Shown in pieces: positions 3,001 to 24,009 of a stretch of 64,000 bases of DNA; the stretch's first letter is position 1; every line of letters starts with the position of its first letter. Below the pieces are notes generated by a model. That model was not told where the DNA came from. It made no database searches and was given only the letters and a program-made list of their open reading frames with translations. The stretch spans positions 124,001 to 188,000 of the forward strand of contig NZ_JANHDH010000003.1 of NCBI RefSeq assembly GCF_026616195.1. Reading direction: 5' to 3'. The position numbers and the translations under genes were made by a program. Source of the stretch: Haloarchaeobius amylolyticus (GTDB lineage: Archaea > Halobacteriota > Halobacteria > Halobacteriales > Natrialbaceae).

Positions 3001-6000
3001 GACTTCGGCGACGTCGGGGTCGGGACCAGCGCGACGGCGAACGTCACCGTCACGAACGACGGCGGGTCGCCGCTCTCGTTCGACGGGGCGCAGGTCACCG
3101 GGAACGACGCGGCCGCCTACACCGTGACCAGTGGCGCTGGAGCGACGACCATCCCGGCCGGCGGGACCCACGAGGTGAGCGTCGAGTTCGAACCGACCGC
3201 GGCCGAGGCCACGGCCGCGACGCTCGAACTCGCCACGAACGACTCCGACGAGTCCACGGTCTCGGTCGGCCTCTCGGGCGTCGGGACGGTGACTTCGGTG
3301 AACCGTGCCCCCATCGCAGCCACCGACCACTACACCACGCTCGAAGGCGAGTGGCTGAACGTGAGCGCGCCGGGCGTCCTCGCGAACGACCACGACCCGG
3401 ACAACGACTCGATCAGTGCGTCGAACGTCTACCAGCCGGGCAACGGGACGGTGTCGTTGACGACGGCTGGCGACTTCCGCTACCAGCCAGATGCGGGGTT
3501 CACCGGGACCGACTCGTTCCGGTACCGCATCCAGGACAGCGAGGGTGCGTACTCCGGCTTCGCCACCGTGACTATCGAGGTCCGGCCCGACCCCAACCGC
3601 GCCCCGGAGGCAATCGGTGAGACCTACTCGGTCCACGCCGGCGACTGGTTGAACGTGAGCGCACCGGGCGTCCTGACGAACGACTACGACCCGGACAACG
3701 ACTCCATCAGGGCGGCCAACACCTACCAGCCAGGCAATGGGACGCTGTCGCTGACCACTGCTGGCGACTTCCGCTATCAGCCCGACTCGGGCTTCACAGG
3801 GACGGACTCGTTCCGCTACCGCATCCAGGACGAACACGGCGCGTACTCTAGCTTCGCCACGGTCACCATCGAAGTGCTCGAACCACGGAACCGCGCGCCG
3901 ACCGCGGTCGACGATCACTACTCGACCGCCGAAGGAGAGTGGCTGAACGTCAGTGCGCCGGGTGTTCTCGCGAACGACTACGACCCGGACAACGACTCCT
4001 TCAGGGCGACGAACACCTACCAGCCGAGTCACGGCACGCTGTCGCTGACGACGGCCGGTGACTTCCGCTACCAGCCCGATGCCGGGTTCACCGGGACGGA
4101 CTCGTTCCGCTACCGCATCCAGGACGCAAACGGTGCGTACTCCGGGTTCGGAACCGTCACCATCGAGGTCACGGCCGACAACCGACCGCCAACCGTCGTC
4201 CCGGACCACTACGGGACGGTCCAGGGCCAGTGGCTGAACATCAGTGCGCCGGGTGTCCTCGCGAACGACTACGACCCGGACAACGACTCCATCAGGGCGA
4301 CGAACACCTACCAGCCGAACAATGGGACGCTCTCGCTGACGACGGCGGGAGACTTCCGCTACCAGCCCGACGCGAACTTCACGGGAACGGACTCGTTCCG
4401 CTACCGCATCCAGGACGCCGACGGCGCCTACTCCGGGTTCGACACCGTGACCATCGAGGTTATCGATTCCACCGGAACGGCCCCCGTAGCCATCCCGGAC
4501 ACCTACACCGTCTCTCAGGGCGACTGGTTGAACGTGAGTGCGCCGGGCGTACTCGCGAACGACCTCGACCCGAACGGGGACGCGATCAGTGCGTCGAACG
4601 TCTACCAGCCGGGCAACGGGACGGTGTCGCTGACGACGGCTGGTGACTTCCGCTACCAGCCCGACCCAGGCTTCACCGGGACGGATACGTTCCGGTACAG
4701 CATCCAGGACGCGAACGGGGAGTACTCCGGCTTCGCGACGGTCACCATCGAGGTCCTGCCGGACCCGAACCGGGCACCGGTCGTCGTCGCCGATAGCTAC
4801 TCGACTGCGGCGGGCGAGTGGCTCAACATCAGTGCGCCTGGCGTGCTTGCAAACGACTACGACCCGGACAACGACTCCGTCAGGGCGACGAACACGTACC
4901 AGCCGAGTCACGGCACGCTGTCGCTGACGACGGCTGGAGACTTCCGCTACCAGCCCGACGACGGCTTCTCCGGCATCGACTCGTTCCGGTATCGCATCCA
5001 GGACGCAAACGGCGCCTACTCCGGGTTCGGGACCGTCACCATCGAGGTCACCCCGGACGCGAACCGGGCGCCGGAACCCGTCGACGACCACTACACGACC
5101 CGCGAAGGCGAATGGCTGAACGTGAGTGCGCCGGGCGTGCTCGCCAACGACGGCGACCCGGACAACGACTCGATACGGGCAACCAACGTGGGCACCCCAA
5201 GCAACGGGACGGTGTCGCTGACGACGGCAGGTGACTTCCGCTACCAGCCCGCCCCCGGCTTCACCGGCACCGACTCGTTCATCTACCGTATCCAGGACAG
5301 CGAAGGTGCCTACTCCGGCTTCGCGACGGTCACGGTCGAGGTCCTGCCGGACCCCAACCGTGCGCCCACGCCGGTCGCCGACGAGTACGTCGTCACTGCG
5401 GGTGAGACGCTCCTCGTGGCGACGCCCGGTGTCCTCGCGAACGACTACGACGCGGACAACGACTCCATCAGGGCGACGAACACCTACCAGCCGAGCAACG
5501 GCTCGCTCTCGCTGACGACCGCCGGGAACTTCGAGTACACCCCAGACGCGGGATTCACGGGCATCGACAGTTTCACCTACCGCATCCAGGACGAACACGG
5601 CGCGTACTCCGGGTTCGCCCCGGTCACGATCACCGTCGTCCCGGACTCGGTGACCGGCCCGGCCGACATCTCGGTCGCCCCCGACAGCGTCGACTTCGGG
5701 GCTCTGCCCGCCGGCACGACCGAGACGGCGACGGTCACCGTCGCCAACGTCGGCGACGAGAACCTCTCGGTCACCGGCGCGACGCTCTCCGGACCAGACG
5801 CAGACGGGTACGAGATCACGGCAGGCAACACGACGGTCGTCCTCGGACACGGCTCGTCACACACCATCACGGTCGCGTACACGCCGACCCGCACCGGCAC
5901 GGCCGACGCGACCCTGACGGTGTCCTCGAACGACTCCGACGATTCGACGGTCACCATCTCGCTCACGGGCGAGGGCACTGACGACAGCGCGCCCAGCATC

Positions 6001-8940: not shown

Positions 8941-11900
8941 TCAGGCGACCACCCCGCTGGAACCGGTCCCGGTCAGTTGCCCCGGCGTCTGCGGTGTCGC
9001 TGGTGTCTGGACCACGCTGGCGTTCGTCGCAGAGGTGTCGTCCGAATCGCTGGAGTCACCCCAGTCGATGTCGTCCCTGATGAGATCGTTGTCGGGGTTC
9101 TGGCCGTCGGATTCCCGGAGAACCCTGAGGGCGTTCCCGTTGATGTCGGACTCGGCCTTCGGACTCGCAAGGCGCATCTCCACGTCGGTAATTGTCACCG
9201 CGTCACCGTCAATCTTGACGAGGCCCTTCTCGCTGAGTTCTTTCATGGCTTTCAGCCGACCGAGTTTCTTCTGGATGTCATCGGGGTCGACGGCGGAACT
9301 GGACGTGCCACTCTTCGCCTCGTAGTAGACCCAGCGTTGCGAGCCGTCGGGACCGGTGATGGTCACCATATCCAGCTGCGTCTGGGTGGTGAAGGTCTCA
9401 TCGTAGAGGTCCTGCTCCGCTTCGGTGAGGCTCTCGAAGGTGTCGCCGGCGTCCGGGTCACTCCGTTTGGCACCGGGCATCGCGATCTCACGGATGATCT
9501 CGACCTTGGTCTCCTCCTCGAGGGCATCGTCGATGTCGATGGACCCGTCGAGGTTGTAGTCCATCCGCACGGTCGCGGAGGACGGGATGTCGTTGTTGTC
9601 GATGTAGTGCTTGGTGTACCGGACCTCGAACATCGCCCCCTTGACGTTGTTGCTATTCCGTGGCGAGACGTCCTCGATGTCGTCCAACACGCTTTCGAGG
9701 CCATCGACCTGCGGGTTCGTGCGGAGGGAGTCCACGTCGTCGGCGAACTGGAACGCTTTCGCTGGCGTGACAGAGGACCTGTCCCACCCGACGTTCCCGA
9801 GAACGACCCTCCGGACGTCGTCGGCGTTCTCCGACTCGAAGTCGAAGAAGTCGTCGAGGCTCCCGGAGTCGGACTGTCTGAGCTTGCGGAGGCCGGAGAC
9901 GGTCAGTTCGGGTGAGTCCGCCTCGGCGATGCTCGTGACCAGTTCCCGACGAGCGTCGGTGTCGACCTCGTCGAGCGAGCGCCGGAGCGTTCGCTGGTCG
10001 TCGACGTCGAGGTCTGCGTAGCGACGCGTCAGGCCGGCGAGTTCGCCCGGCGTGACCGCGTCGTCGGTCAGGAGCGCACGCAGCGTGGTGTCGTCGGTCT
10101 CGTCGATGAACTCCAGGCCTGCGCCCCGGGAGCGCTGGACCAGGTCCTTCGCGTCGATGCGAGCCGCCTGCGGCAGGTCCTCGATGGTCTCGACGGCCCG
10201 GTCGAGCTGGTCGTAGGAGTCGATGGCGTCGCCGTCGGCAGCACGGGCGACGGCACGGCGGAATCTGGTGTCACCGGGGCCGCCGTCGGTCAGGGCGGTG
10301 ACGGTGTCGGCGTCCGCTTTGCCGACGAGCTTCACTCCGCTTGGGCCGGTCGATTCGACGAGTTCGTCGATTTCGGCGCGGCGAGCCGCGTCGTAGGAGT
10401 CGTACCGCCTGACGACGCGGCCGATGTCGCGGAACTCCACGTCACCGGCGGCGTAGGCCTCCGTGAGTTGCCGCTGGAGTGCGGCCTTGTCACGCAGGTC
10501 GATGAGGTACTGGCGTGGCTGTGGCCGCAGCTCCGAAAGGAGCCGTTTCCCGCTGCTGCCGGTCCGCTTGAGGTAGGTGAGCCCCTTCGCGTAGCGGTCC
10601 GAGTTCGGCCGGCTGGTGAGCCAGTCGAACACGCGCTGTCCGCGGGCATCGTCCGCGAGCCGGGCGATGCGTCGCTGCTCCGGGAGCGGGGTACGTCTGA
10701 GCGTGTCCGCCGTCTGCCCGATCACCGACTTCGCGCGGTCACCGACCTCTACGTCGTCGATGCGTCGGCCGACGCGGAAGTTCACATCGGGAAGCCGGTT
10801 CGCGATGCGACCTCCGGTCCATAACGCGCTTCCGACGGTCGCGCCTTTTATCGAGGCCTTCACCGTGCCGCCGGCCCGGACCAGTGCCGCGATGTAGGGC
10901 AGTCTGGCCGCGGCCTGTGCGGCCTTGGCCTCGGCGTAGACCGGAACGAGGAACGACCCGGCGTAGCCGACACTGTAGCCGATGGCGAACGCCTCCTGAT
11001 ACTTCCCGCCGTCCTCGAAGGGGTTCAACTGCTGGCGGCGGTTCCCGTAGTACTGGACGATGGCCGTGAACGCCTGATGACGCTTCTCGGATTGCGTGGC
11101 GATGGTCTTGAGCTGACCGAGCGCCTGCGCGGTCCGTCTCGCCGCGTCGTCGTACTCGCTCGGGTGTGTGGTGACGTAGGCCGTCCGGACGAGATCCGTG
11201 GCGAAGACGTTGACACCCTGCGAGAGCCCGGAGAGTTCGCCGAAGAAGGCGACGCTGCTCGTCTGCACCCAGGTGCCGACCCCGCCGAAGGGGAACGACG
11301 TCTGGGCGATGCCCTCGGCGATCTTGCCGAAGTTGTTCGGGCCGTAGAACTTGCGCTCGACCTCGGTGCCGTGGACGTCACGGGCGACCACCTTCACGGT
11401 CGCCGGACTCACGTAGCCCGAGAGTGCCGTGCCGATCTGGTCGACCGCACCACGGTCGATGCTGAACCAGACCGCGTCCTCCAGCACGTGCTTCTGGCCG
11501 AAGTAGTCCTGGCTGGCGCGTCGTTCGCCCTTGTAGAACCCGACCACGCCGACCCCGCTCTGGTCGTGGAGCGTGATGGTCACGCGGTAGTTCTCGCGGT
11601 CGCCGTCGGTGTCGACCCAGCCCTGGGTTCGCGGGGGTCTGAAGTCGTGCAGGCGGGCGTACCACTGATTCTCGTACTCCTCGTCGTCCCTGATGGAGTC
11701 CTGGTCGGTGTCAGGGTTGGACGGTGCGAGGCCGAGTGCCTTCTCCTCGCCGTCGGAGAGGCCATCACCGTCGGTGTCGGTCTTCAGTGGCGACGAGCCG
11801 ACAGAGATAGACGTCAGCAGGTCCTCGGCATCGGACTCGTTGTTCCGGACCGCCTCGACGTAGTTCTTCGCGACACCGGGGTCCCTGGCAACGAGAGTAT

Positions 11901-14900
11901 CCCAGCCCCGGAGTTCGACCGCGTCCGAGATCCCGTCGCCGTCGGTGTCGTACTTCGCCGGGTTGGAGGTGGTCCGTGCGATGAATCGGATGTCGTCCCC
12001 TTCGCCCACGGGCGCGAAGGTGACCTCCTCGCTGTCGTTCAGGCCATCGCCGTCGGTGTCGGCGTTGTACGGCGACGTGGTGAACGTCTCACCGGGTCCG
12101 TTCGACATCGTCCACGTCTGTTTCTCGAGGACGTCGGGGAGACCGTCGCCGTCCGAGTCCTTCCGGGTCTGTTCGGTGACGAGCTGCAACCGGGCGTTGA
12201 CCCCGGAGACGTCCACCGAGAAGTTCACTTCGCCGGAGAGGCCGGAGACGTTCACGGTCTCCTGGACGGTCCCGACGGTCCCGATGGTCAGGTCCTTCGT
12301 GACTGTGGTCCCGTCGCCATCCGTCGCGGTGAGCGTCGCGACCGGGTTCACGTCGGTCTGTTCGGTCTGGTAGGCGACCGTGAGTCCCTGCGTGCCCGGT
12401 GCGATGGTCGTGGTGAAGGTTGCGTTCCCCTCGTCGCTCGTGTCGTCACCGCCCCCGGACCCGGTGTCGGGTGCTTCCGGGACCGTGAGCGTCACCGGTT
12501 CGTCCATGTCGAGCGAGATGTTCCGGGGGTTCGTCGCCCGACCGGTGACGACCTGCCACTGGTCGAGCGTCCCCGGGGTCAGGGGCTCCCTCACCGCTTC
12601 GTCGTTGAAGTACGGCGTGATGGTGACCGAGGTGTTCGTCAGGCCGCCCCTGAAGGCTCCACCGTCGGTGTTGTCGTTGTTCCAGGACCAGTCGGGTGAG
12701 GTGCCCGAGTAGCCGAAGTCGCCGCTATCGTCACGGACGACCCAGTAGCCGGAGCCGGGGAGACCATCGAAGTCCATCGACACTGCGGCCCCGGACCCGT
12801 CACGTGGTTTGTCGTGAATCAGGACGAGGCTCAGCCCCTCGGGGCCGGACCAGAAGAACAACCGGCTCACGTCGCTCTTCGCGACGGGGAGTGGCGAGTT
12901 GATCTCCGCATTGCCATAGTTGTAGAACCGCTCGATGGTCTGACCGTTGCTGAGCGGCACAACCTCGAACGTCTCGCCGCCCTGTTCGACGGTTATCTTC
13001 CGCGCGCTGGGCTCGCCACCCAGGACGAGCGTGGTCTCGTTCGTGACGTTACAGGAGTTCTCGCACTGGAACTCGGAGAGGTTCGCGAACGAGACCGGTG
13101 TCGCGTTCCCGCCGCCGGGACCGAGGTCAACGAAGCCGGTCCACTCGTCCGTGTCCAGCACGGTGAAGAACGAGAACGAGGAGACGTTCGCGACCGCGGT
13201 CCCGTTCTTGATGGTCGTGTTCACGGGATGCCACCGCCCCTCGACGGAGCCGTTCCACTTGTACACGACGAGGTCCTCGTAGGCCGATTCCGGGACCGAC
13301 TCGTCGATGGGGATGCGGACCGTCGCGTTGTCGAAATCGGTCCGGTTCTGGACGCGGACGGTCGGTCCGGCCGTGGCGTTCGTCCCGCTGAAGTACGATG
13401 GCTGTTCCGTGATGTCGGCCTCGACGGCACCCTGGCCGCGAAGGTCGAGTTGCACGCCGGTCTCGGCGTCGGTGACGGTCCGCTCGAAGGTCTCGTTCCC
13501 GTCGAGGACGCCATCGTCGTCGGTGTCCGGGTCCGTCGGGTCGGTGCCGAGTTCCGGTTCCTCGGGGTCGAGGAGACCGTCGTCGTCGGAGTCGGCGCGG
13601 ATCGGGTTCGTGCCGTTCGCGACCTCCTGACCGTCGGTGATGCCGTCACCGTCGGTGTCGGCGACGCGCAGTGCGGAGTGGGCGTCCGCCTCCTCTGCGT
13701 TCGTCAGTCCGTCACCGTCTGGGTCGGCGGCCCCGTCCAGCGTCCCGTCCCCGTCCGTGTCGGCGGTGAGGGGGTCGACACCGGCGGTCCGATGCTCGAA
13801 GCCGTCGGAGAGCCCGTCACCGTCCGTGTCGGCCTCGAACGGGTCGGTGCCCAGCGTATACTCGCGGAAGGCACCGAGCGTGTCGTTGTCGAAGTCCTCC
13901 ATCCCGTCGATGACGCCGTCATCACCGTCGTCGACCGCCGTCGCTGGCGCATCGCTGTCGTTGTCCGTGGGGTCGGTTCCCGTGACGTTCTTCTCGTAGA
14001 AGTCCGGGAGGCCGTCCTCGTCCTTGTCGTTGTCGAGGTATGCGGGGACGGTGTCGTTGTCATGGTCGACGGTCCCCTCGACCCGGTCGCTGGCACCGTC
14101 GCCGTCGGCGTCCGTATCGAGCCAGTTGAACGTCCCGTCGTAATCGTAGTCGAGGAAGAGTTCCTTGCCGTCCTCGACCTCGGTGCGGGTCGGGATGGTG
14201 TCACCGTCGTCGTCCGGGTCCCGGAAGTTCTCGATGCCATTGGCGTCGGTGTCAGCCCGCCCTTCGACGTAGTCGGGCAGATGGTCCGCGTCACTGTCGC
14301 TGTCGAGCGCGTCGATGGCGAGGTCGCCATCGCTGTCGATCGGGAAGCCACCGAGGGTCTCGACGCCGTCGTCGATACCGTCAGCGTCGGTGTCGGCGAG
14401 GGTTGCGTTCGTCCCGAGTTCTCGTTCCCGAGCGTCGGAGACGCCATCGCCGTCCGTGTCGGTCAGGTTCGGCTCGACGTCCAGCCGGTCGAGTCGCTCC
14501 AGGACGAGCGTCGCCTGTCTGTACCCAACATGGTACTGTCTGATGGCCTTCGCACGCGCGGAGACCGAACGCTGGAGTTTCGTGTCAGAGTCGATGGGGT
14601 CCCGGGCCTTCTCTGCGCGTTCGTAGGCTCGTCGTGCGTTCTCGAGGTGTGATTCGAGGCTCCGAAGTTGTCCCTTCGACAGGTTCGAACGGGCGTGGTC
14701 GAGGGTCCACTCAGCCTTCGCGAGGCGCCAGCGAGCGGTGCGGTTCGCCGCGACGACCGTCGTCACGGACACGGTCCTGACCGTGTCGGTCTCGGAGTCG
14801 TTCAGCGCCCGCTTGCCGTTACTGCTCGCGACGAACGCGTGGAGTGCAGACGTCCCTTGCGCGGCTGCCTGAAGTGCAGAGACGTCCGCATCGACCGGGT

Positions 14901-15246
14901 CGTCGAACCCGTCGACGACCTCCTCGTACCTGTCATCGGCCCGGTCGAGATGTGACTGCTTCCCGGGGTGGTCCGCTTCCAGCGTCTCGAGTTCGCGCTG
15001 TGCTGCAGCGAACACCGAGAGTGGCGCCCGTCTGGGTATCGTGTCGGTCCGCACCCGATTCTGGACTAGTTCTCCGGTCGCGCTCGCAGTGTTCGGTTCT
15101 TCACCAATCGTCTCCCTGTCACCAGCTGACCGGTCTGGTTGCGCCACGCCTGGCACTGCAACCAGTGATCCGACCATGAGAAGAACAGCGAAAAGAGCGA
15201 ATGAAACGTGTTTTCTCGACGTTCTATCCGTCTCGCGTCGGCTCAT
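8941..15246 (-). CDS. Giant secreted TSP type 3 repeat protein with C-terminal PD-(D/E)XK nuclease-like domain; candidate polymorphic toxin
   Basis: I place the start at the ATG at 15246 because GGTGAG lies 9 nt upstream. ATG 15270 and TTG 15279 are alternatives. Parts in order: Sec-type signal peptide (about 1-35); a helical region (60-255); DTDGDGxxD thrombospondin type 3 Ca2+ repeats (about 261-583); beta-rich domains; a second TSP3 cluster (about 1028-1186); an Ig-like domain (about 1210-1306); a hydrophobic Ala/Gly-rich stretch (about 1313-1490); a long helical region (about 1496-1850); a C-terminal alpha/beta domain (about 1861-2026); and a Ser/Thr/Pro tail. The C-terminal domain shows a helix with MFEVRY (Glu about 1873), QLDMV (Asp about 1959) and YYEAKSG (Glu about 1976, Lys about 1978), which is the E...D...ExK pattern of PD-(D/E)XK nucleases. 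Delivery of a nuclease tip into competitor cells is my inference. A surface structural protein is the alternative. Confidence 0.85.
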   Translation of the reverse strand: MSRRETDRTSRKHVSFALFAVLLMVGSLVAVPGVAQPDRSAGDRETIGEEPNTASATGELVQNRVRTDTIPRRAPLSVFAAAQRELETLEADHPGKQSHLDRADDRYEEVVDGFDDPVDADVSALQAAAQGTSALHAFVASSNGKRALNDSETDTVRTVSVTTVVAANRTARWRLAKAEWTLDHARSNLSKGQLRSLESHLENARRAYERAEKARDPIDSDTKLQRSVSARAKAIRQYHVGYRQATLVLERLDRLDVEPNLTDTDGDGVSDARERELGTNATLADTDADGIDDGVETLGGFPIDSDGDLAIDALDSDSDADHLPDYVEGRADTDANGIENFRDPDDDGDTIPTRTEVEDGKELFLDYDYDGTFNWLDTDADGDGASDRVEGTVDHDNDTVPAYLDNDKDEDGLPDFYEKNVTGTDPTDNDSDAPATAVDDGDDGVIDGMEDFDNDTLGAFREYTLGTDPFEADTDGDGLSDGFEHRTAGVDPLTADTDGDGTLDGAADPDGDGLTNAEEADAHSALRVADTDGDGITDGQEVANGTNPIRADSDDDGLLDPEEPELGTDPTDPDTDDDGVLDGNETFERTVTDAETGVQLDLRGQGAVEADITEQPSYFSGTNATAGPTVRVQNRTDFDNATVRIPIDESVPESAYEDLVVYKWNGSVEGRWHPVNTTIKNGTAVANVSSFSFFTVLDTDEWTGFVDLGPGGGNATPVSFANLSEFQCENSCNVTNETTLVLGGEPSARKITVEQGGETFEVVPLSNGQTIERFYNYGNAEINSPLPVAKSDVSRLFFWSGPEGLSLVLIHDKPRDGSGAAVSMDFDGLPGSGYWVVRDDSGDFGYSGTSPDWSWNNDNTDGGAFRGGLTNTSVTITPYFNDEAVREPLTPGTLDQWQVVTGRATNPRNISLDMDEPVTLTVPEAPDTGSGGGDDTSDEGNATFTTTIAPGTQGLTVAYQTEQTDVNPVATLTATDGDGTTVTKDLTIGTVGTVQETVNVSGLSGEVNFSVDVSGVNARLQLVTEQTRKDSDGDGLPDVLEKQTWTMSNGPGETFTTSPYNADTDGDGLNDSEEVTFAPVGEGDDIRFIARTTSNPAKYDTDGDGISDAVELRGWDTLVARDPGVAKNYVEAVRNNESDAEDLLTSISVGSSPLKTDTDGDGLSDGEEKALGLAPSNPDTDQDSIRDDEEYENQWYARLHDFRPPRTQGWVDTDGDRENYRVTITLHDQSGVGVVGFYKGERRASQDYFGQKHVLEDAVWFSIDRGAVDQIGTALSGYVSPATVKVVARDVHGTEVERKFYGPNNFGKIAEGIAQTSFPFGGVGTWVQTSSVAFFGELSGLSQGVNVFATDLVRTAYVTTHPSEYDDAARRTAQALGQLKTIATQSEKRHQAFTAIVQYYGNRRQQLNPFEDGGKYQEAFAIGYSVGYAGSFLVPVYAEAKAAQAAARLPYIAALVRAGGTVKASIKGATVGSALWTGGRIANRLPDVNFRVGRRIDDVEVGDRAKSVIGQTADTLRRTPLPEQRRIARLADDARGQRVFDWLTSRPNSDRYAKGLTYLKRTGSSGKRLLSELRPQPRQYLIDLRDKAALQRQLTEAYAAGDVEFRDIGRVVRRYDSYDAARRAEIDELVESTGPSGVKLVGKADADTVTALTDGGPGDTRFRRAVARAADGDAIDSYDQLDRAVETIEDLPQAARIDAKDLVQRSRGAGLEFIDETDDTTLRALLTDDAVTPGELAGLTRRYADLDVDDQRTLRRSLDEVDTDARRELVTSIAEADSPELTVSGLRKLRQSDSGSLDDFFDFESENADDVRRVVLGNVGWDRSSVTPAKAFQFADDVDSLRTNPQVDGLESVLDDIEDVSPRNSNNVKGAMFEVRYTKHYIDNNDIPSSATVRMDYNLDGSIDIDDALEEETKVEIIREIAMPGAKRSDPDAGDTFESLTEAEQDLYDETFTTQTQLDMVTITGPDGSQRWVYYEAKSGTSSSAVDPDDIQKKLGRLKAMKELSEKGLVKIDGDAVTITDVEMRLASPKAESDINGNALRVLRESDGQNPDNDLIRDDIDWGDSSDSDDTSATNASVVQTPATPQTPGQLTGTGSSGVVA

Positions 15247-15276
15247 GTGTTGGTGCTCACCATGTGACATTACCAA

Positions 15277-15301
15277 CAACTAACATCATCTAACTTAGTT
15301 G
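15277..15301. promoter_or_regulatory. Inverted repeat upstream of the toxin-like giant gene
   Basis: CAACTAA (15277-15283) and TTAGTTG (15295-15301) are perfect inverted arms with an 11-nt spacer, 31 nt before the preferred start. The region is AT-rich compared with its surroundings. It could be an operator or part of the core promoter. Confidence 0.35.
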
Positions 15302-15556
15302 TACTGGTGGCGTGAATGTCTGGTTGAATTAAGTTGGACAACTGTGACTATCGCCGTTCTCACTGGTCGATGGCCCTCGGCGCAGGCCGGTTTCGAGGCC
15401 CACGGTGTGCGCATCGCGAGGAACCCTGCGAACCGCTTCAAAGAATCCGAAGAATCCTCTCTCTGACCTGAACCGTTCCGGAGTCGCTGCCGTCCTCGTG
15501 CGACGGCTCTGCACGACTCCCGTTCGCTCATGGGCCAGGCCGTGGTACCTGGTGGC

Positions 15557-16039
15557 ATGCTCAGCGTAGGACAGCAAGCCCCGGACTTCACGCTTCCCGG
15601 GGCCGCCGCTGGCTCGATCGAGACGCACGGCCTCTCGGAGTACACCGACCGCGGGTGGGCGGTCATCCTGGTCTTCTACCCCTTCGACTTCCATCCCGCC
15701 TGTACCGACCAGTGGTGTTCGCTGCGTGATGCGGACTGGCTCACGATGCTGGACGACGTCGTCGTCCTCGGCGTCGGGGCGGATGCCGCCTACGCCCACC
15801 GCGAGTACGCGGACAGGCACAACATCCAGTTCCCACTGCTCGCGGACACGGACGGCGAGGTCAGCCGTGCCTACGGCGTCCTGACCGAGGAGTTCGAAGA
15901 ACACCGTGCCGTCCCGGCCCGGGCGACGTTCGTCGTCGACGGCGACCAGGTCGTCCGCTTCGCGTGGGCGGCGAGCGGGCCGGAGGACCAGCCGAACCTC
16001 GACGCCCTGCAGACGGCGACCACCGGGCGGGACAGGTAG
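15557..16039 (+). CDS. Peroxiredoxin, BCP/AhpC-TSA type
   Basis: This is a thiol peroxidase of about 160 residues that would reduce H2O2 and organic hydroperoxides in the cytoplasm. MLSVGQQAPDFTLPG opens the thioredoxin-like fold. The active site FYPFDFHPACTDQWC places the peroxidatic Cys near residue 49 and a second Cys at 54, the CxxxxC spacing of BCP-type enzymes. The Pro before the Cys is followed by Ala instead of the usual Gly. The start at 15557 fits the family N-terminus; an in-frame ATG at 15530 would add nine residues with no family support. It stands alone, with no reductase next to it. Confidence 0.9.
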   Translation: MLSVGQQAPDFTLPGAAAGSIETHGLSEYTDRGWAVILVFYPFDFHPACTDQWCSLRDADWLTMLDDVVVLGVGADAAYAHREYADRHNIQFPLLADTDGEVSRAYGVLTEEFEEHRAVPARATFVVDGDQVVRFAWAASGPEDQPNLDALQTATTGRDR

Positions 16040-16334
16040 CAGACTGGTAGAAGTGGGTTGGAGCCGATGGCCGGCTCTCACTTCAGGCAGCCGTCTTGCC
16101 ACGCGACATGCGGCCATGGGTGGTCGAGTCACTCCGGGCCCTTCGGCGGCGATTCCAGCGAACGTTCACCGACCCGTAAACGACCGCGAACCATCCCATC
16201 GCGTTCAACCCCGTTCAGAAAGTTCCAGACCGCCAAAAACAGCGTCAGAGCAGTTCAAACCACTGAAACGTCTGAACGTCTCTCCCCCTTCAAGTACCTC
16301 CCACTCCATCGAATCGAGTGGAGGCACCCCACCC

Positions 16335-16745
16335 ATGAAGCTCTCCAGGCTGACCGCGGTCGCACTGGCCGCCCTGCTCGTGAGTGCAGGCACCGCTGCG
16401 GCCGCGACCGGTTCGTCGAACAGCTCGCTGGCCGTCGGAGACGACGACACGTCGCCGGTCCCAGCTGACGACCACGCGAACGAGACTGCACGCGAGCAGG
16501 CGCCCGCCCAGGGCGGGGAGGGGCAGCTCCCCGACCAGGCGGCCAGCCGGGGTCCGCCCGTCGACCTCCCGGACGCCATCCCTGACCACGTCGAGGACCG
16601 CGTCGAGACCATCCACGCGCACATCGACCAGTTCGTCGACGGTGCGCTGGACGCGACGCTCGGGCAGGTCCTCGGTGGTCTGAACGAGGACGCCGGGACG
16701 GACGCCCAGAACGACACCGGTACGAACGCCTCCGCGAGCGTCTGA
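16335..16745 (+). CDS. Small secreted acidic protein of unknown function
   Basis: The product has 136 residues. A signal peptide (MKLSRLTAVALAALLVSAG, cleavage likely near AAAA at 22-25) is followed by a low-complexity acidic region, a Pro/Asp segment, one amphipathic helix (about 85-110) and an Asn/Thr-rich tail with sequons. There is no lipobox or sortase motif, so it is probably released or loosely associated with the envelope. I do not recognise a family. The longer in-frame extension upstream is a shadow of the peroxiredoxin region; the start is set by the signal peptide. Confidence 0.75.
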   Translation: MKLSRLTAVALAALLVSAGTAAAATGSSNSSLAVGDDDTSPVPADDHANETAREQAPAQGGEGQLPDQAASRGPPVDLPDAIPDHVEDRVETIHAHIDQFVDGALDATLGQVLGGLNEDAGTDAQNDTGTNASASV

Positions 16746-17101
16746 GTCACCCCCGTGACTGGGACGTGAGCTCCCGCGACCCACTCACACCACTCCCACC
16801 CATCGGAACTTCCACCCCCTTCCCCCCACCACCCTCAGTTCGTTGCGACCCTCGTGCACAGCATTCTGCCCAGTTGCCGAACGAGGGTTCGCTCGGTACT
16901 TCGCTTCGTACCTCGCTCCGTCACCGTAGCCTGCGGCGACGAACTGGACCGGGTACCAAGTTCAGAGTAGACTCTCACCGAACCGGAAGCCAGTGCTGGC
17001 GCTGGTGAATCCTTCTGTGCGACGTTGATTCGACACTGTGACCGACCTGAACAGGCAGTCCGAGAGTGTGCTCGGACAGGGCTGTCTCGGGGCCGCCAGG
17101 C
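16746..17101. other. Gene-free stretch with pyrimidine tract and short repeats
   Basis: This is 356 bases between two convergent genes. It holds a C/T-rich tract (about 16780-16832) and a run of degenerate TCGCTCGGTAC/TCGCTTCGTAC direct repeats (about 16888-16920). I see no credible ORF or RNA gene. Confidence 0.5.
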
Positions 17102-18097
17102 TCAGCTGGCGTCGGGTTCGTCGGCCGACTTCTCCAGGTACTCCGCGATCGTCTCGTCGTCGAGTTCCTCGAGGAGCGTCTGGTCGTCGAGGGCTTCGAC
17201 GACGCGGTCGGTCCCGATGGCATCGAGGACGCGATCGCGGCCGACCACCGCGACGAACCGGGCGAGACCTGACTCGAAGCGTCGGTCGGCCTCCTCGTCA
17301 CCGACCTTCGTCTCGAACGCCCGGTCGATGTAGCGCTCGCGGAGCTCCCGCCGACGCTCGTCGTCGACCCCGTCGGCGTCGAACTCGTTCTCGAACCACT
17401 CGCGCCAGCGGTCGCGCTCGGCCCACTCCCCGGTGAACTCCGACTCGCTGCGCAGCCAGTCGTACTCGGGAGCGACCTCGCCCGAGAGGCCCCGGGCACG
17501 ACGTTCGTCTTCGATGAGCGACCGGGCCACGTGGGCCCCGTTCCCGGCAGCGACGATGGCCTGTGCGCTGCGACCGCCTGCGGGCGAGGCGACGTACAGG
17601 CCGTCGACCGGGGTCCGACCATCCGCGTCCGCGTACGCCGGGTCGAAGTGCTCTTCGAGTTCGCCGTGGTGTTCGTGCTCGTGGAACATCTCGTCCTCGT
17701 CGTCCAGTCCGCGGAGGTACGACCCGTCGTACCAGGCCGCGGCGATGACGGACTCCGCACCGACGCGGCGCCCGTCCTGTGTCTCGACGACGAATCCCGA
17801 CGTGTCCTCGGCGCGTTCGACGGCGACGACCATGTCGGCGAGGAGGGTCGCGCCGACCTCCTCGACGTGGGCGTGCATCAGGTCCCGGAACGCGTCGACG
17901 TCCATCCCGGCCGGGAAGCCGAGATAGTTCTCCAGGTAGGCACACCGGGGGAGGGCCGCGTTGCCGCGGTCGAAGACCACGGTGTCGAGGCCGTATCTGG
18001 CCGTGAACACCGCGGCGGAACAGCCGGCTGGCCCGCCACCGACCACGACGACGTCGGTCTCGTCTGTGACCGACGCCCGTGACTCGGATTCCGTCAT
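17102..18097 (-). CDS. FAD-dependent NAD(P)/FAD oxidoreductase, thioredoxin-reductase-like
   Basis: The product has 331 residues. The N-terminus has a Rossmann dinucleotide site VVVGGGPAGCSAA (about residues 17-29) and a second FAD-binding motif VDGLYVASPAGG, where the family usually has GLYAAGD. There is no CxxC redox pair, so it is not a true thioredoxin reductase. The C-terminal third is a haloarchaeal helical acidic extension. A GGGGGTGT sequence lies about 9 nt before ATG 18097 and serves as the ribosome site; in-frame codons far upstream are shadow. It is a paralogue of the FAD oxidoreductase at 58098-58841 in the iron region. Substrate unknown; a ferric-siderophore or flavin-linked reductase role is possible. 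Confidence 0.85.
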   Translation of the reverse strand: MTESESRASVTDETDVVVVGGGPAGCSAAVFTARYGLDTVVFDRGNAALPRCAYLENYLGFPAGMDVDAFRDLMHAHVEEVGATLLADMVVAVERAEDTSGFVVETQDGRRVGAESVIAAAWYDGSYLRGLDDEDEMFHEHEHHGELEEHFDPAYADADGRTPVDGLYVASPAGGRSAQAIVAAGNGAHVARSLIEDERRARGLSGEVAPEYDWLRSESEFTGEWAERDRWREWFENEFDADGVDDERRRELRERYIDRAFETKVGDEEADRRFESGLARFVAVVGRDRVLDAIGTDRVVEALDDQTLLEELDDETIAEYLEKSADEPDAS

Positions 18098-18279
18098 CGA
18101 CCAGTGACACCCCCAACCGGCCCCGAGGGGGTCCGGTCCAGCGATATCCCGAGTACGTTCGTCCCTGTTCGCATACCCAGAATGGCTCTCTATCACGGTA
18201 AACACCTTTCGGACCGTGGGGTTTCGGGAAGCGGGTAGGGAGGAGTCCTCAGCAGGGCACAGCCGAGCCGCTGATAGAG

Positions 18280-18312
18280 ATATATCCGTGGTTCTCGTAC
18301 TGCTACACGCAA
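18280..18312 (+). promoter_or_regulatory. TATA box for a leaderless transcript of the small ORF-dps pair
   Basis: AGATATAT near 18278-18285 is the best TATA box in this gap. Transcription would begin about 25 nt downstream, close to the ATG at 18312, so the first translated ORF would be the 45-codon one and not dps. Confidence 0.45.
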
Positions 18313-18449
18313 TGAAGGGTCGAAACGTGGGGAACGATTCCGAGGACGTGGGGAACGAATCCGGGGAGACGCCGTATGGCATGCGAGCGCCGGTACCGAC
18401 CGCGGTTCCGCGAGGCGTGAGATCGGACGCGACAGGACGGTCGCGATGA
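18312..18449 (+). CDS. Possible 45-residue leader ORF overlapping the Dps-like gene
   Basis: The ATG at 18312 sits where a leaderless mRNA from the TATA box at about 18280 would start. The ORF ends in TGA at 18447-18449, overlapping the dps start as ATGA. Its product is hydrophilic and has an internal duplication (GNDSEDVGNES) from a direct repeat of CGTGGGGAACGA. It may be a regulatory leader that couples translation to dps, or just an untranslated leader that happens to be open. I recognise no family. Confidence 0.4.
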   Translation: MKGRNVGNDSEDVGNESGETPYGMRAPVPTAVPRGVRSDATGRSR

Positions 18450-19243
18450 GCCAGCACCACGGCCGGCTCGTCAGGGAGCCACCGACAGGGACCGTCCGAC
18501 AACGGTGGGGCACCCTCGCACCGAACGAGGTCGGCCTCCACGACGCCGTCGCCGAGGAACTCGTCGACGCGCTCGTCGTCGACCACGCCAACTCGTTCAA
18601 CCTCTTCTCGGTCCTTCGCAAGCACTACTGGACCGCGGCCGGGGCGGAGCGCGGCCCGGTCGCCACGTTCCTGGAGGCGGCGTACAGGCGGGTCCGCGAC
18701 GTGAACGACGACCTGGCGGTCCGGATCGTGCAACTCGGCGGGATTCCGCCGAACACGCCACCGACCATCCAGGCGCGAGCGACGGTTCACCTCGAGGGTG
18801 AGGACCTCTACGACCTCCGAGCCTCGCTCCAGGGAGACGTGGCGGCGTATGCGACGCTCGTCGAGACGATGCGCGAGCACACGACCCTCGCCGAGCGACT
18901 GGGCGACCAGGCCACCGCCGAACTGCTGAGCGACCGCTTGGAACGGCTGGAGGCCGATACGGACCACCTCGAGACGCTCCTCGAGGACGACGCACTCGTT
19001 CCGCCGCGAGCCGAGCAAGGCGGCGACACTGGCACCGCGGAGAACTCGGAAGAGGAGTCTGCGTCGACGCCGGCGACATCGCACCTCCGGCGGCCGGGCC
19101 CCTCACACAAATTCGAGGCGGAAGCCCACGAGTTCAGTCGTGGGAGGAAGCCGACAGTGGTCCATCGGACCACCGCCGGTGGCGAGGCCGCCATTCCCAC
19201 CGGAAGTGTTAGTATCGAACGGTACGACTCTCGAAGTGACTGA
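18446..19243 (+). CDS. Dps/ferritin-like protein with a C-terminus extended into an IS remnant
   Basis: Residues about 20-185 form a Dps-like four-helix bundle, with the conserved block LFSVLRKHYW and later VRIVQLGG. The Dps family stores iron and protects DNA from oxidants. Some ferroxidase positions look changed: the HxxxD-type dyad after KHYW reads FLEAAYRRV, so iron oxidation may be weak. Homology to the second copy ends near DDALV (about nt 19005). The remaining roughly 80 residues are an acidic linker and then a tail read from the neighbouring IS remnant (from about 19105), so the native stop was probably lost. The start is set by ATG 18446 overlapping the preceding small ORF. Confidence 0.8.
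   Translation: MSQHHGRLVREPPTGTVRQRWGTLAPNEVGLHDAVAEELVDALVVDHANSFNLFSVLRKHYWTAAGAERGPVATFLEAAYRRVRDVNDDLAVRIVQLGGIPPNTPPTIQARATVHLEGEDLYDLRASLQGDVAAYATLVETMREHTTLAERLGDQATAELLSDRLERLEADTDHLETLLEDDALVPPRAEQGGDTGTAENSEEESASTPATSHLRRPGPSHKFEAEAHEFSRGRKPTVVHRTTAGGEAAIPTGSVSIERYDSRSD
19125..19144. repeat. Left hairpin of the IS remnant
   Basis: CCCACGA pairs with TCGTGGG around a GTTCAG loop; it is flanked by GAAG on both sides. Confidence 0.6.
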
Positions 19244-19619
19244 TTGGGATGCCGCAATCGAGAAGCCCATCCGACAAAGGCACACGCTCCGGGCCGCACC
19301 AGCGCGAGCGTGAAAACCGCTTCGTGGGGCGGGCATCGGCCCTGTTCGTGAGGCATCCGAAGTCCAGCATGGATACACTGTACCACGGGGCCAACGAGCC
19401 GCAGGCGGTTGCGCCACCTCCGGCCCTTTTTCGGAGACTTGTGGGCCGCATCCGGCCGAGATACGCGCTCCCCGTGGGTTGGGTCGCCCGTCAGGAGGCC
19501 CGAAAGACCGAGACGATGAACGCGAGCGGTAGCTCCATGCTCCTCCGTCCTTCGGCGGCAGAGCCGGAGTCTCACGGTCAATTAAATTGCTCTCATGGAT
19601 GGCCCACCGGCGGAGCAAG

Positions 19620-19639
19620 CCCACGACTTTAGTCGTGGG
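19620..19639. repeat. Right hairpin of the IS remnant
   Basis: A perfect 8-bp stem CCCACGAC/GTCGTGGG with a TTTA loop. In TnpB elements such a hairpin closes the right-end guide RNA scaffold; the sequence after it enters the truncated Dps gene. Confidence 0.6.
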
Positions 19640-19646
19640 CACCTGA

Positions 19647-20171
19647 CACGTTCACCGTCGCTGGGACACCGTCGGCTCGAACGAGCTCGGGCTCGACACC
19701 GACGCCACCGAGCGACTGGTCGCGGCGCTGAACGACGACCTGTCGGGGCTGTACATCCTGTTCAACCAGCTCCGGAAGCACCGCTGGTGCGTCGAGGGAC
19801 GGGAGACGAGGCCCCTGCAGGAACTCCTGGTGGCACAGACGGACCGACTCACCGACCTCACCGACGACATCGGTATCCGGGTGTTCGCGCTGGGAGGTGT
19901 CCCCGTCTCCGGGCCGATGGGAATCCGCCAGCACGCTGCGCTGTACATCGAGGCGGCCCACCAGTACGACGTCCGGTCCTCGCTGGAACGCGACCTCGAG
20001 GCCTACGCCACCGTGATCGAACAGTTCCGCGAGCACATCGACCTGGCGAACGCGAGCGGTGACGAGGCGACGAGCGAACTGCTCTCGGTCCACCTCCTGA
20101 CGCTCGAACGTGACGCCAACGCCATCTACAGGTACCTCGCCGACGACACGCTCTCCGGGCGGCGTCGATAG
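19647..20171 (+). pseudogene. 5'-truncated second Dps-like gene
   Basis: Reading from 19647 gives RRWDTVGSNELGLD and then a complete Dps-like bundle ending at 20171. It aligns throughout with the first copy (LRKHRW against LRKHYW, FALGGVP against VQLGGIP, DLEAYATVIEQFREH against DVAAYATLVETMREH). The start codon and first roughly 20 residues are missing: a stop (TGA, 19644) and the IS hairpin lie immediately upstream. An internal ATG at 19830 could only make a 113-residue fragment. The simplest reading is that the IS insertion, or a deletion ending at it, removed the 5' end. Confidence 0.75.
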
Positions 20172-20490
20172 ACGACGGCCGTGGGTGTCGACGATGCTCA
20201 CCCCGTCCTGTTCGTCGCGACCACGATGGCCGGGTACGAGGGCTGCGTGCAGACGCTGCACGATGTGCATGGGGTGCACTGATTACTGTCAGAGTCATCT
20301 GTCCAGATGCCGTCAGGTCGGCGGCTGAAGGGTCGCCCGGGTCGCCCACACCGGCCATGAAGATGGGGGAACGACCACGCACACCACACCGGTCGTCGAT
20401 ACAGGTTGGGGGATACCGTCTGTGACCCATGGGCCGGGCCGAGGCGAGCCTAGAGCCACACCGGGGATCGGCCCTTTTCGATGAGCATAG
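20172..20490. other. Gene-free stretch after the truncated Dps copy
   Basis: This is 319 bases between convergent genes. Short ORFs on both strands lack family features and ribosome sites. A GTGCATGGGGTGCAC near-palindrome (about 20265-20279) is the only local structure I noticed. Confidence 0.45.
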
Positions 20491-21300
20491 TCAGGACCGT
20501 TCTGTTGCAGGCCACGCCTCAAGCGGCGTCGCCTCGCGCCGGTACACATCGAGGCGCTCGCGTGCCCACTCACGTGCACCGTCGTCCGTCGTCTCCAGCA
20601 GTGCCCGTGGCTCGCCCTCCTCGTCGACGCCGACCTGGACCGTCTCGTCGAGGATGCCCAGGTAGAAGGGGAGGGCCGCATCCGTCAGGTACAGCTCGAA
20701 TCCGTCGCTGTCCAGGAGGTCTCTCGTGAGTGGTGCGAAGTCGTCGTCCTCGAACAGCGTCTCGGCGACGCCCTCGGCGACGATCATCTCGACGGTGGCG
20801 TCCCCGTCGACGACCTTGCGGTGTACCGCCTCGACGGCGTGCAGGCCCGTCAGGGGGAGTGCGACACGGTCGTCCGAGGACTCTCGGAGCCTCGCGACGT
20901 GTTCGTTCACCATCGCCCACGGATTCCCCGGCGCGGCGACCGTGACCGACGCGTCCTGAAGGTGTGTGAGGTCGAGGTCGAACTCCTCTCTGGTCGTCCA
21001 CTGGAGGAACGGTTGCAGCCGGAGCGCGGTCCTGACCGTCTCCTCGAGGTCGAGGAACCGTTCGATGACGGCCTCCCCACCGGGCGTGACGGTGTACTCG
21101 CCGTTCTCCTGCTGGAGCCATCCCTTCTCCAGCAGCGTCTCGACGTTCCTCGTGACGGTGGTGCGAGCGACCGAGAGTTCCGTCCGGAGGTCCTCCCGGG
21201 TGGCCCCGTCGAGGTCATGGACCGTCTCGAGTATCCGCACGCGGTTGGTCGACCTGGCGACGAACGAGATCTCTTCGATAGCCGAACGTTGTTCCCCCAT
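20491..21300 (-). CDS. Winged-helix transcriptional regulator with FilR1-type C-terminal domain
   Basis: The product has 269 residues. Residues about 10-75 form a winged HTH (NRVRILETVHD, ATREDLRTELSVARTTVTRNVETLLEKGWL) and about 125-250 form the alpha/beta domain found in FilR1-like haloarchaeal regulators, likely a ligand sensor. It lies 75 nt downstream of and in the same direction as the ArsP-like permease, so it may be cotranscribed with it and control it. Start ATG 21300. Confidence 0.85.
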   Translation of the reverse strand: MGEQRSAIEEISFVARSTNRVRILETVHDLDGATREDLRTELSVARTTVTRNVETLLEKGWLQQENGEYTVTPGGEAVIERFLDLEETVRTALRLQPFLQWTTREEFDLDLTHLQDASVTVAAPGNPWAMVNEHVARLRESSDDRVALPLTGLHAVEAVHRKVVDGDATVEMIVAEGVAETLFEDDDFAPLTRDLLDSDGFELYLTDAALPFYLGILDETVQVGVDEEGEPRALLETTDDGAREWARERLDVYRREATPLEAWPATERS

Positions 21301-21375
21301 GACAGTTCCCTCACCGCGTCAGGTTCCGCGTCTCCCGTAAAGAGTTCTCTGGCCGTCCGAGGCGAGAACTGCCGG

Positions 21376-22707
21376 TCAGTCCGCGGATTGGGCGTGCTCG
21401 CCGTGACCCTGCTCGTCGCCGACCGACTCCGACCGGTGGAGCCAGTAGAGGAACAGGAAGAAGACCGTCGCGAGCACGTTCAGCACCAGTTTGTAGTTCA
21501 TCTCTATCTTCACCTCGGCGACCTGGACGCTGGAGGGGTCCGGAATCAGGCCCGCCCCGAGGAAGATGAAGTGGAGGACGACCCCTGTGAGCACTGCCGA
21601 GAGGAAGATCATCCCCGAGAGGATGGCCGCGAATTTGGTCCCGTAGTACTCGCGGTAGGCGTCCATGATGGGCGGCACGATGAGGTCGGCGTAGATGTAC
21701 GACAGCACCGAGCCGAACGGGAGGCCGTTGCTGAAGAGGACCGCGCCGAACGGGACGTTCCCGACCGAGCAGACGAACGTCGCGACGCCGATGACCGCCC
21801 CCAGCGCCGCCGTCCAGAGGACGTACACCGGCAGCCCGAACGTCGGTCCCGAGAAGACGGTCGTCCAGACGCTCTCGGGGATGAACCCGGCGATGAGCCC
21901 GGCGAAGATGAAGCCGATGGCGATCTCGTCCCAGAGCATGCCCCACTCGGACCACTGCTTGTCGGCGAGCGCCTTCCAGCCGGCGAGCGAGGTCGCCTGC
22001 TCGCGGATGGTCGTGTTCGCCTCCTCCGGGTCGAAACTGTCCTTGCAGGACTGCGAGCAGAAGTAGTAGGTCTTCCCGTCGTGCTCTATCGAGTGGTCGG
22101 CCTCGTCGGGGTCGATCTCCATCCCACAGACCGGGTCCTCCACGGTCTGGGTCCCCTCGTCGAGGACGTTCTCGCGGGCCTGTTCGACGACCTCGTCGGG
22201 TACGAGGTAGACGAAGCCGAACGCCATGAGGCCGATGAGGATGAACCCGCCGACGAGGTCGGCGAGCAGGAACTGCCAGCCGAGCAGGAGGTAGATGACG
22301 ATACCGATCTCGATGACGAGGTTCGTCGACGCGAACATGAACGCGCCGAGCGTGGCCGCGGCGGAGCCGCCCTTCTTGAAGAGGTTCTTGGCGGTGGCGA
22401 TGGCGCTGTACGAACACGACGAGGAGACGAACCCGAACAGCGACCCGTAGCCGAGTTCTTTGACGCCGTGGCCCTCGAGCAACTCCGAGACCTGCTCGTC
22501 GGAGGTCCACGCCTCCACGCCGCCGGCGATGGCGAATCCGACTACCAGCGCCCACCACGTGATCCACGCCATCGCGGCGGTCGTCGTCAGGAACTGCCGC
22601 GTGCTCTCGACGAAGAACGTCGACAGTGGCTTCGATGTGGTGAAGACCCCGAGTGCGACCGTCGCGAGCGCGATGACGCCGAGGATGGCGTACTCCTTTC
22701 GTTCCAT
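21376..22707 (-). CDS. ArsP-like permease (COG0701, PF03773 type) with internal YHS metal-binding domain
   Basis: The product has 443 residues and about 8-10 membrane helices in two halves. The first half holds SSSCSYSAIATAKNLFKKGG (about residues 95-114) and the second CSVGNVPFGAVLFSNGLPFG, the paired Cys-containing motifs of this permease family. Between them is a soluble YHS domain (EDPVCGMEIDP ... YYFCSQSCKDSF, about 190-230) with three Cys that could bind a soft metal or metalloid. A role in efflux of organoarsenicals, Cu, Zn or similar is likely, but the substrate cannot be read from sequence. The C-terminus is a short His/Glu-containing tail. The FilR1-type regulator follows. Confidence 0.88.
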   Translation of the reverse strand: MERKEYAILGVIALATVALGVFTTSKPLSTFFVESTRQFLTTTAAMAWITWWALVVGFAIAGGVEAWTSDEQVSELLEGHGVKELGYGSLFGFVSSSCSYSAIATAKNLFKKGGSAAATLGAFMFASTNLVIEIGIVIYLLLGWQFLLADLVGGFILIGLMAFGFVYLVPDEVVEQARENVLDEGTQTVEDPVCGMEIDPDEADHSIEHDGKTYYFCSQSCKDSFDPEEANTTIREQATSLAGWKALADKQWSEWGMLWDEIAIGFIFAGLIAGFIPESVWTTVFSGPTFGLPVYVLWTAALGAVIGVATFVCSVGNVPFGAVLFSNGLPFGSVLSYIYADLIVPPIMDAYREYYGTKFAAILSGMIFLSAVLTGVVLHFIFLGAGLIPDPSSVQVAEVKIEMNYKLVLNVLATVFFLFLYWLHRSESVGDEQGHGEHAQSAD

Positions 22708-22971
22708 GGGTGTTCATTGGGGTTCGATACTTTCCGGGCTGTTGCCTGCCGTCACGGGGCTCTCGCGGGCTGCATGTTTCCGTTCGCAATCTACCGGGGA
22801 CCCCAACGTTTGTAATCGAAATCGAATCTGCGGACGCCGGGGACGGGGTGCCACGTCTGCGCGTAGGGAATCGCCCCGACAGGGTTGGAACCGACAGAAC
22901 CACCACCCTTTGCGAGTCAGCCCCCAGACCGATACTTTCATCCACGCGTCAGCGGATGGTACTCCTACCAG

Positions 22972-24009
22972 ATGGCTCTCTTCGGTTTGCTCCCCGACAC
23001 CGCACTCGTCAACGTCCTCGTCATCCTGGCCGCGACCGGGCTGGTCTGGGTCGGGAGCGGGTGGCTGGAGGAGTCCGCGGACCACCTCTCCGGGTACTAC
23101 GGCCTGCCGGCGGTGGTCCAGGGCTCCATCGTGGTCGCCATCGGGTCGAGCTTCCCCGAACTCGCCAGCGTCGTCTTCGCCGCGCTCGACGGCGTGTTCG
23201 ACATGGGCGTCGGGGCCATCGTCGGCTCGGCCATCTTCAACATCCTCGTCATCCCGGCGCTGTCGGGCATCGCGACCGAGGACGACCTGGAGACGAGCCG
23301 CACCATCGTCTACAAGGAGGCACAGTTCTACATGCTCGCGGTGTCGGTGCTCGTCGTCACGTTCGCGCTGGCGGTAATCTACGTCCCGACCCCGGGCGGC
23401 CCCGAACTCTCGGGGAACATCACGCGCCCTCTCGCCGCGATACCCCTGCTGCTGTACTGCCTGTACCTCTTCATCCAGTGGCAGGACGTCAGCGACTACG
23501 AGGCCGAGGAACCGGGCGACGACATCCCCGTCAGGAAGGAGTGGGGTCGCCTCGCCGTCGGGCTGCTCGTCATCCTCGTCGCGGTCGAACAGCTCGTCCA
23601 CGGCGTCGACCACCTCAGCACCGCCTTCGGCATCCCGGAGTTCCTCGCCGGCGTCACCATCCTCGCGGCCGCGACCAGCCTTCCGGACACGCTGGTCAGC
23701 GTCCGGTCTGCGAAATCCGGCAAGGGCGTGACCAGCCTCGGGAACGTCCTCGGGTCGAACACCTTCGACCTGCTCGTCGCCATCCCCATCGGCGTCCTCA
23801 TCGTCGGCAGCGTCCCCATCGACTTCGCGGTCGCCATCCCGATGCTGGGCGTCCTCACGCTCGCGACCATCCTCCTGTTCACCATCATGCGAACCGGCCT
23901 CTCGCTCAGCAAGGTCGAATCCTACGCGTTGCTGGTCGCCTACGTGGTGTTCGTCGCGTGGGTCGTCGCGGAGTCCGCGGGCGTGACAGACCTGATTCGA
24001 GGGGCGTGA
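22972..24009 (+). CDS. Cation/Ca2+ antiporter, CaCA family (Na+/Ca2+ exchanger-like)
   Basis: The product is about 345 residues with two homologous membrane halves. Each half carries the alpha-repeat signature: GSSFPELASV (about residues 57-66) and ATSLPDTLVS (about 237-246), with acidic residues that bind cation. Expected role: exchange of Ca2+ (or similar) for Na+ or H+ across the cell membrane. I chose ATG 22972 because the first helix follows directly; the 29 in-frame codons before it are hydrophilic and not conserved-looking. It is transcribed divergently from the ArsP-like permease. Confidence 0.9.
   Translation: MALFGLLPDTALVNVLVILAATGLVWVGSGWLEESADHLSGYYGLPAVVQGSIVVAIGSSFPELASVVFAALDGVFDMGVGAIVGSAIFNILVIPALSGIATEDDLETSRTIVYKEAQFYMLAVSVLVVTFALAVIYVPTPGGPELSGNITRPLAAIPLLLYCLYLFIQWQDVSDYEAEEPGDDIPVRKEWGRLAVGLLVILVAVEQLVHGVDHLSTAFGIPEFLAGVTILAAATSLPDTLVSVRSAKSGKGVTSLGNVLGSNTFDLLVAIPIGVLIVGSVPIDFAVAIPMLGVLTLATILLFTIMRTGLSLSKVESYALLVAYVVFVAWVVAESAGVTDLIRGA

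Follow-up and report, generated by a model that had tools for sequence, protein, structure and literature searches.

Two Dps-like frames lie one behind the other on the forward strand of the window, by which we mean the whole 64-kb stretch of DNA analysed here (genome G000, contig C3), and a short mobile element stands between them (Table 1). The first ORF (18446-19243) encodes 265 amino acids with a ferritin-like domain (PF00210, E 6.9e-15), and the same domain is found in the second frame (19647-20171; E 8.3e-18). Both matches exceed the PF00210 cut-off and the two sequences share 41% identity across 174 residues, which bears out the paralogous Dps-like frames described in the initial annotation of this DNA. 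We refer to them as B and C, after the order of their orthologues in relatives. A structure model of residues 1-221 of the first ORF yields a four-helix fold with a disordered end, and its B part matches DpsA of Halobacterium salinarum (1moj), which is the best solved relative of the B and C domains alike. DpsA (1moj and related entries) has the ferritin-like fold in common with B and C, yet it is a single-domain protein and possesses both ferroxidase-site histidines, a pair that B and C lack. Elsewhere in the genome, we found one further Dps-like match only (C3:506 kb, 38% identity) and no second copy of C.

Table 1. Features of the interrupted Dps-like locus (positions in the window)
Feature	Position	Strand	Basis
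B domain, ferritin/Dps-like, intact, residues 1-185	18446..19000	+	PF00210, relatives' alignment, four-helix model
Native B-C fusion linker, residues 186-211, free of stop and start codons	19001..19078	+	length as in the Halogranum amylolyticum linker; predicted disordered
C N-terminal stub SHLRRPGPSH, residues 212-221, in B's frame	19079..19108	+	matches relatives' C N-termini, HLRRPDPSHVRQEW
Insertion target CCCTCAC, left of the element	19100..19106	+	target motif of other copies
Non-autonomous IS1341/IS605-type element (PATE), 541 bp	19107..19647	+	ends common with intact TnpB elements; joined flanks restore the ORF
44 element-coded codons extending the first ORF, then stop TGA	19109..19243	+	ORF reading
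Left-end palindrome	19125..19144	+	palindrome search, expectation, folding
Putative decayed tnpB fragment, reads GTRS...RENRFV	19274..19326	+	two short collinear TnpB-gene matches; moderate evidence
Right-end palindrome	19620..19639	+	palindrome search, expectation, folding
Headless remainder of C including stop	19648..20171	+	PF00210; frame and start-codon reading

The element measures 541 bp, close to the segment of about 535 bp with IS200/IS605-type hairpins that had been noticed at first, and both hairpins fold (z -3.5 at the right end and, weaker, z -1.9 at the left). Its two 20-nt palindromes share the same orientation and are the sole such sites in the window, where 0.01 would be expected; an inverted repeat recorded here (I1) reflects these palindromes and nothing else. 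The ends of the element were set by homologous copies, in most of which the left end is preceded by TTCAC, CTCAC, or GTCAC; their right ends close with TGAC or TTAC, a few bases past the right palindrome. Since the target and the right end are each followed by AC, the ends of the element are uncertain by up to 2 bp. The terminal sequences, ACAAATTCGAGG and CACCTGAC, are unrelated, i.e. there are no terminal inverted repeats. At 541 bp the element is too short to encode a transposase, and its longest forward ORF has no Pfam match, which together rule out an intact insertion sequence with its own TnpB. The same genome does carry an intact element of 1,393 bp with a 435-aa TnpB frame, to which the left and right ends of the element described here are 88% and 93% identical. 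Two short, collinear, and in-frame matches to the TnpB gene of this intact element (E 6e-4 and 2e-3; among 300 random pieces, 32 score E 0.02 or better) provide moderate evidence that the interior derives from a decayed tnpB. This interior occurs once in the genome and has partial relatives in a single other genome (G271) among the 125 of the family; an Rfam search gave nothing above threshold and no match in a plasmid collection reached 60% identity.

Palindrome-associated transposable elements (PATEs) are haloarchaeal elements described from Haloquadratum walsbyi, which have near-terminal palindromes of the IS605 type, lack terminal inverted repeats, produce no target duplication, and are too short for a transposase, with decayed tnpB sequence kept in some of them (PMC3119063). 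By these features, as read from its sequence, the 541-bp element is a PATE: it shares with the Haloquadratum elements the near-terminal palindromes, the absence of a duplication, the short length, and, as it appears, decayed tnpB sequence. In contrast to the multicopy PATE families, it is present as a single copy, its partial relatives being confined to one further genome among the 125 of the family searched, and it therefore belongs with the heterogeneous PATEs. Transposition in the IS605-type family proceeds through single strands, and neither a deletion nor a target duplication is expected from it. Seven TnpB-domain matches above cut-off are present in the genome; TnpA (PF01797) was not found there, and the element therefore looks stranded at present. 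It is conceivable that read-through into the right end could yield a putative guide RNA, and that a resident TnpB might use it to cut element-free copies and hold the element in place. A left end of the same type lies on another contig of this genome (C4, locus L066, 2105-2164), with no matching right palindrome in 4 kb.

On the left of the element, the sequence codes for ...DDALV, followed by PPRAEQGGDTGTAENSEEESASTPAT and SHLRRPGPSH, that is, the last residues of B, a linker, and the beginning of C, all in the frame of B and with neither a stop nor a start codon between the B and C parts. These N-terminal codons of C had been overlooked before. On the right, the sequence resumes with VHRRWDTV..., the next residues of C. 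Once joined, the flanks form a single uninterrupted ORF of 394 amino acids in which no codon is missing and the target is neither duplicated nor lost; the empty site is reconstructed from orthologues at 55-68% identity. A deletion at the insertion site, which had been entertained as an insertion-linked event in the initial annotation, is ruled out by this junction.

The locus in relatives without the element was the check that had been suggested at the outset. We searched 293 genomes of the order and examined 23 loci, in which B orthologues (53-67% identity to the first protein) stand directly upstream of C orthologues; a further gene, A, precedes B in 15 of the 23. The haloarchaeal arrays of three Dps-like genes, A-B-C, make up loci L013-L035 (e.g. 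L013, 939-2648). In these relatives B ends at about 190-193 residues, and C, which in most cases opens with M(T/A)STPHLR or MSAPHLR, starts either across the stop of B or right next to it, so that B and C are separate neighbouring genes in most of them; no relative combined the same long C-terminus with a short second gene at an element-free locus. The B gene of Halarchaeum rubridurum (L082, 2564-3232) is apparently frameshifted, its match being split over two frames.

Halogranum amylolyticum (L071, NZ_FODV01000007.1) encodes an intact B-C fusion in one ORF of 395 amino acids, of which residues 1-393 align with the joined flanks at 61% identity, free of gaps across the junction and with a linker of equal length (26 residues). 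A second genome of the Halogranum genus group (L153) contains a B-C fusion of 414 amino acids. Both have B, linker, and C in one ORF, as does the window locus, and differ from it in being uninterrupted; the linker of the second is also longer. A third candidate (G460) was rejected, as it comprises two separate genes. The 125 genomes of the family to which the window belongs showed no other B-C fusion, the five congeners each gave one, more distant, Dps match, and a strict fusion search of 392 genomes of the order, a sample containing no positive control and hence uninformative, came back empty. No publication on double-Dps fusions in nature came up in a limited literature search. The trees are compatible both with one and with several origins of the fusions (AU p 0.29 and 0.14; branches are long); an alignment mixing fused and single-domain proteins misplaced the L153 fusion and was left out. 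Given that the joined flanks form one ORF and that intact fusions exist elsewhere, the stop of B and the start of C would have been lost earlier, by gene fusion, and the fusion, judged from these alignments, predates the insertion of the element.

We therefore consider it very probable that a double-Dps fusion was interrupted by one non-autonomous PATE, with no detectable deletion or duplication. B would have been joined to C by the 26-residue linker in one double-Dps gene, and an IS1341/IS605-type PATE, moved in the past by TnpA, would then have inserted after CCCTCAC, some ten codons downstream of where the C part begins. The outcome would be a 265-aa B with a native plus a foreign tail and a headless C. 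The present product of the first ORF comprises 185 residues of B, 36 residues of native linker and C, and 44 element-coded residues (19109-19240), which end at a TGA (19241-19243). The count of 44 codons falls within the 40-50 by which the first ORF had been said to run into the element; the idea of a foreign tail holds for these 44 residues, whereas the other 36 of the 80 are native. The second gene had been described as lacking a start, and this stands as well. Its frame has a TGA at 19644-19646, three codons before the remainder of C, and no ATG, GTG, or TTG is found in frame ahead of a GTG at 19830, which lies inside the fold and would omit the first helix and more. The C half, without a usable start, is thus probably lost, and C is presumably not made. 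B, as we infer, still folds and assembles.

It is unlikely that the fusion was already decaying as a pseudogene when the element arrived, and that the insertion therefore had little effect. The branches of the window's B and C are long (0.53 and 0.67 changes per column), and no member of either family has more of its family-invariant residues altered than the window's sequence does (B, 3 of 35; C, 4 of 40). However, the intact fusions likewise sit on fairly long branches, and the two halves are open apart from the insertion, with a GC3 of 0.88 and 0.89. The open frames, the high GC3, and the changed invariants fit a recent insertion and weak constraint alike.

A different history had been put forward in the initial annotation, namely that the insertion, or a deletion linked to it, struck two separate Dps genes and removed the stop of B and the start of C. 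Most relatives do keep B and C apart, and an array of this kind was indeed struck in Saliphagus infecundisoli (L072), where an unfused A-B-C array contains a palindrome-bearing, IS605-type element of about 370 bp (about 3585-3955) directly after ATGAC at the start of C. The window locus, however, is missing no codon and has the N-terminus of C in the left flank, in the frame of B, while intact fusions with a linker of equal length exist, all of which makes the two-gene history very improbable here. The Saliphagus element resembles that of the window in its palindromes and left end and lies at the same B/C boundary, but it occupies a different site, between unfused genes, and its interior is unrelated; we take it to be an independent insertion. 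The B/C boundary has therefore been hit at least twice, with differing outcomes, and two cases do not show a hotspot.

The Saliphagus array also bears on the proposal that the element has been put to use, such that its tail or an internal start gives useful proteins from both halves, since C has an in-frame GTG start within the element there (209-aa ORF, 3893-4522). In the window, the TGA ahead of the C remainder and the location of the first start inside the fold speak against such an arrangement, as does the tail of 44 residues, in which no known domain was detected (Pfam), and we regard this proposal as highly improbable as well. Finally, an assembly artefact at the junction, for which no support was found, is barely credible: the ends fall where elements of this type begin and stop, the flanks are an exact match, and the interior of the element occurs once in the genome, which makes misassembly through a repeat unlikely. 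The interrupted fusion offers a clean case of gene splitting by a PATE, in which the empty site is rebuilt to the base.

The insertion of a PATE is in itself ordinary, and the fused pair of ferroxidase-poor Dps domains is the more interesting by-product. The ferroxidase ligands of DpsA are H52, H64, D79, and E83. The corresponding positions, taken from an ungapped DpsA alignment and read by fixed offsets from a motif, carry HHDE in all 15 A genes of relatives, while both histidines are kept in none of 23 B and none of 22 C sequences; the window has YADV in B and RQDI in C. Single rows of such a reading may err, yet the contrast between A and B/C in these sequences is clear. Both B and C have a Dps-like fold and are unlikely to be canonical ferroxidases; given the lost histidines, we call them Dps-like paralogues rather than canonical Dps. 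One could speculate, with considerable doubt, that the ferroxidase-poor B and C form B-C pairs, possibly within a cage shared with a catalytic A, that the fusion fixes this pairing, and that the PATE undid it and left a transposon-tailed B. The A-B-C array and the natural in-frame B-C fusion raise the testable question of mixed or fused Dps cages.

In the window, B is preceded by a 45-codon ORF (18312-18449), with its stop and the start of B sharing the bases ATGA. It was considered as a relic of gene A and rejected, as no relative was found in the loci compared. The wider neighbourhood (15530-24009) is of a stress and metal type, with an AhpC/TSA peroxiredoxin, an FAD-dependent oxidoreductase, a FilR1-type regulator, an ArsP-type permease with a YHS domain, and a Na/Ca exchanger. 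Further upstream, the minus strand carries an ORF of 2112 codons (8941-15279) that is rich in DTDGDGLSD-type (thrombospondin type 3-like) repeats.
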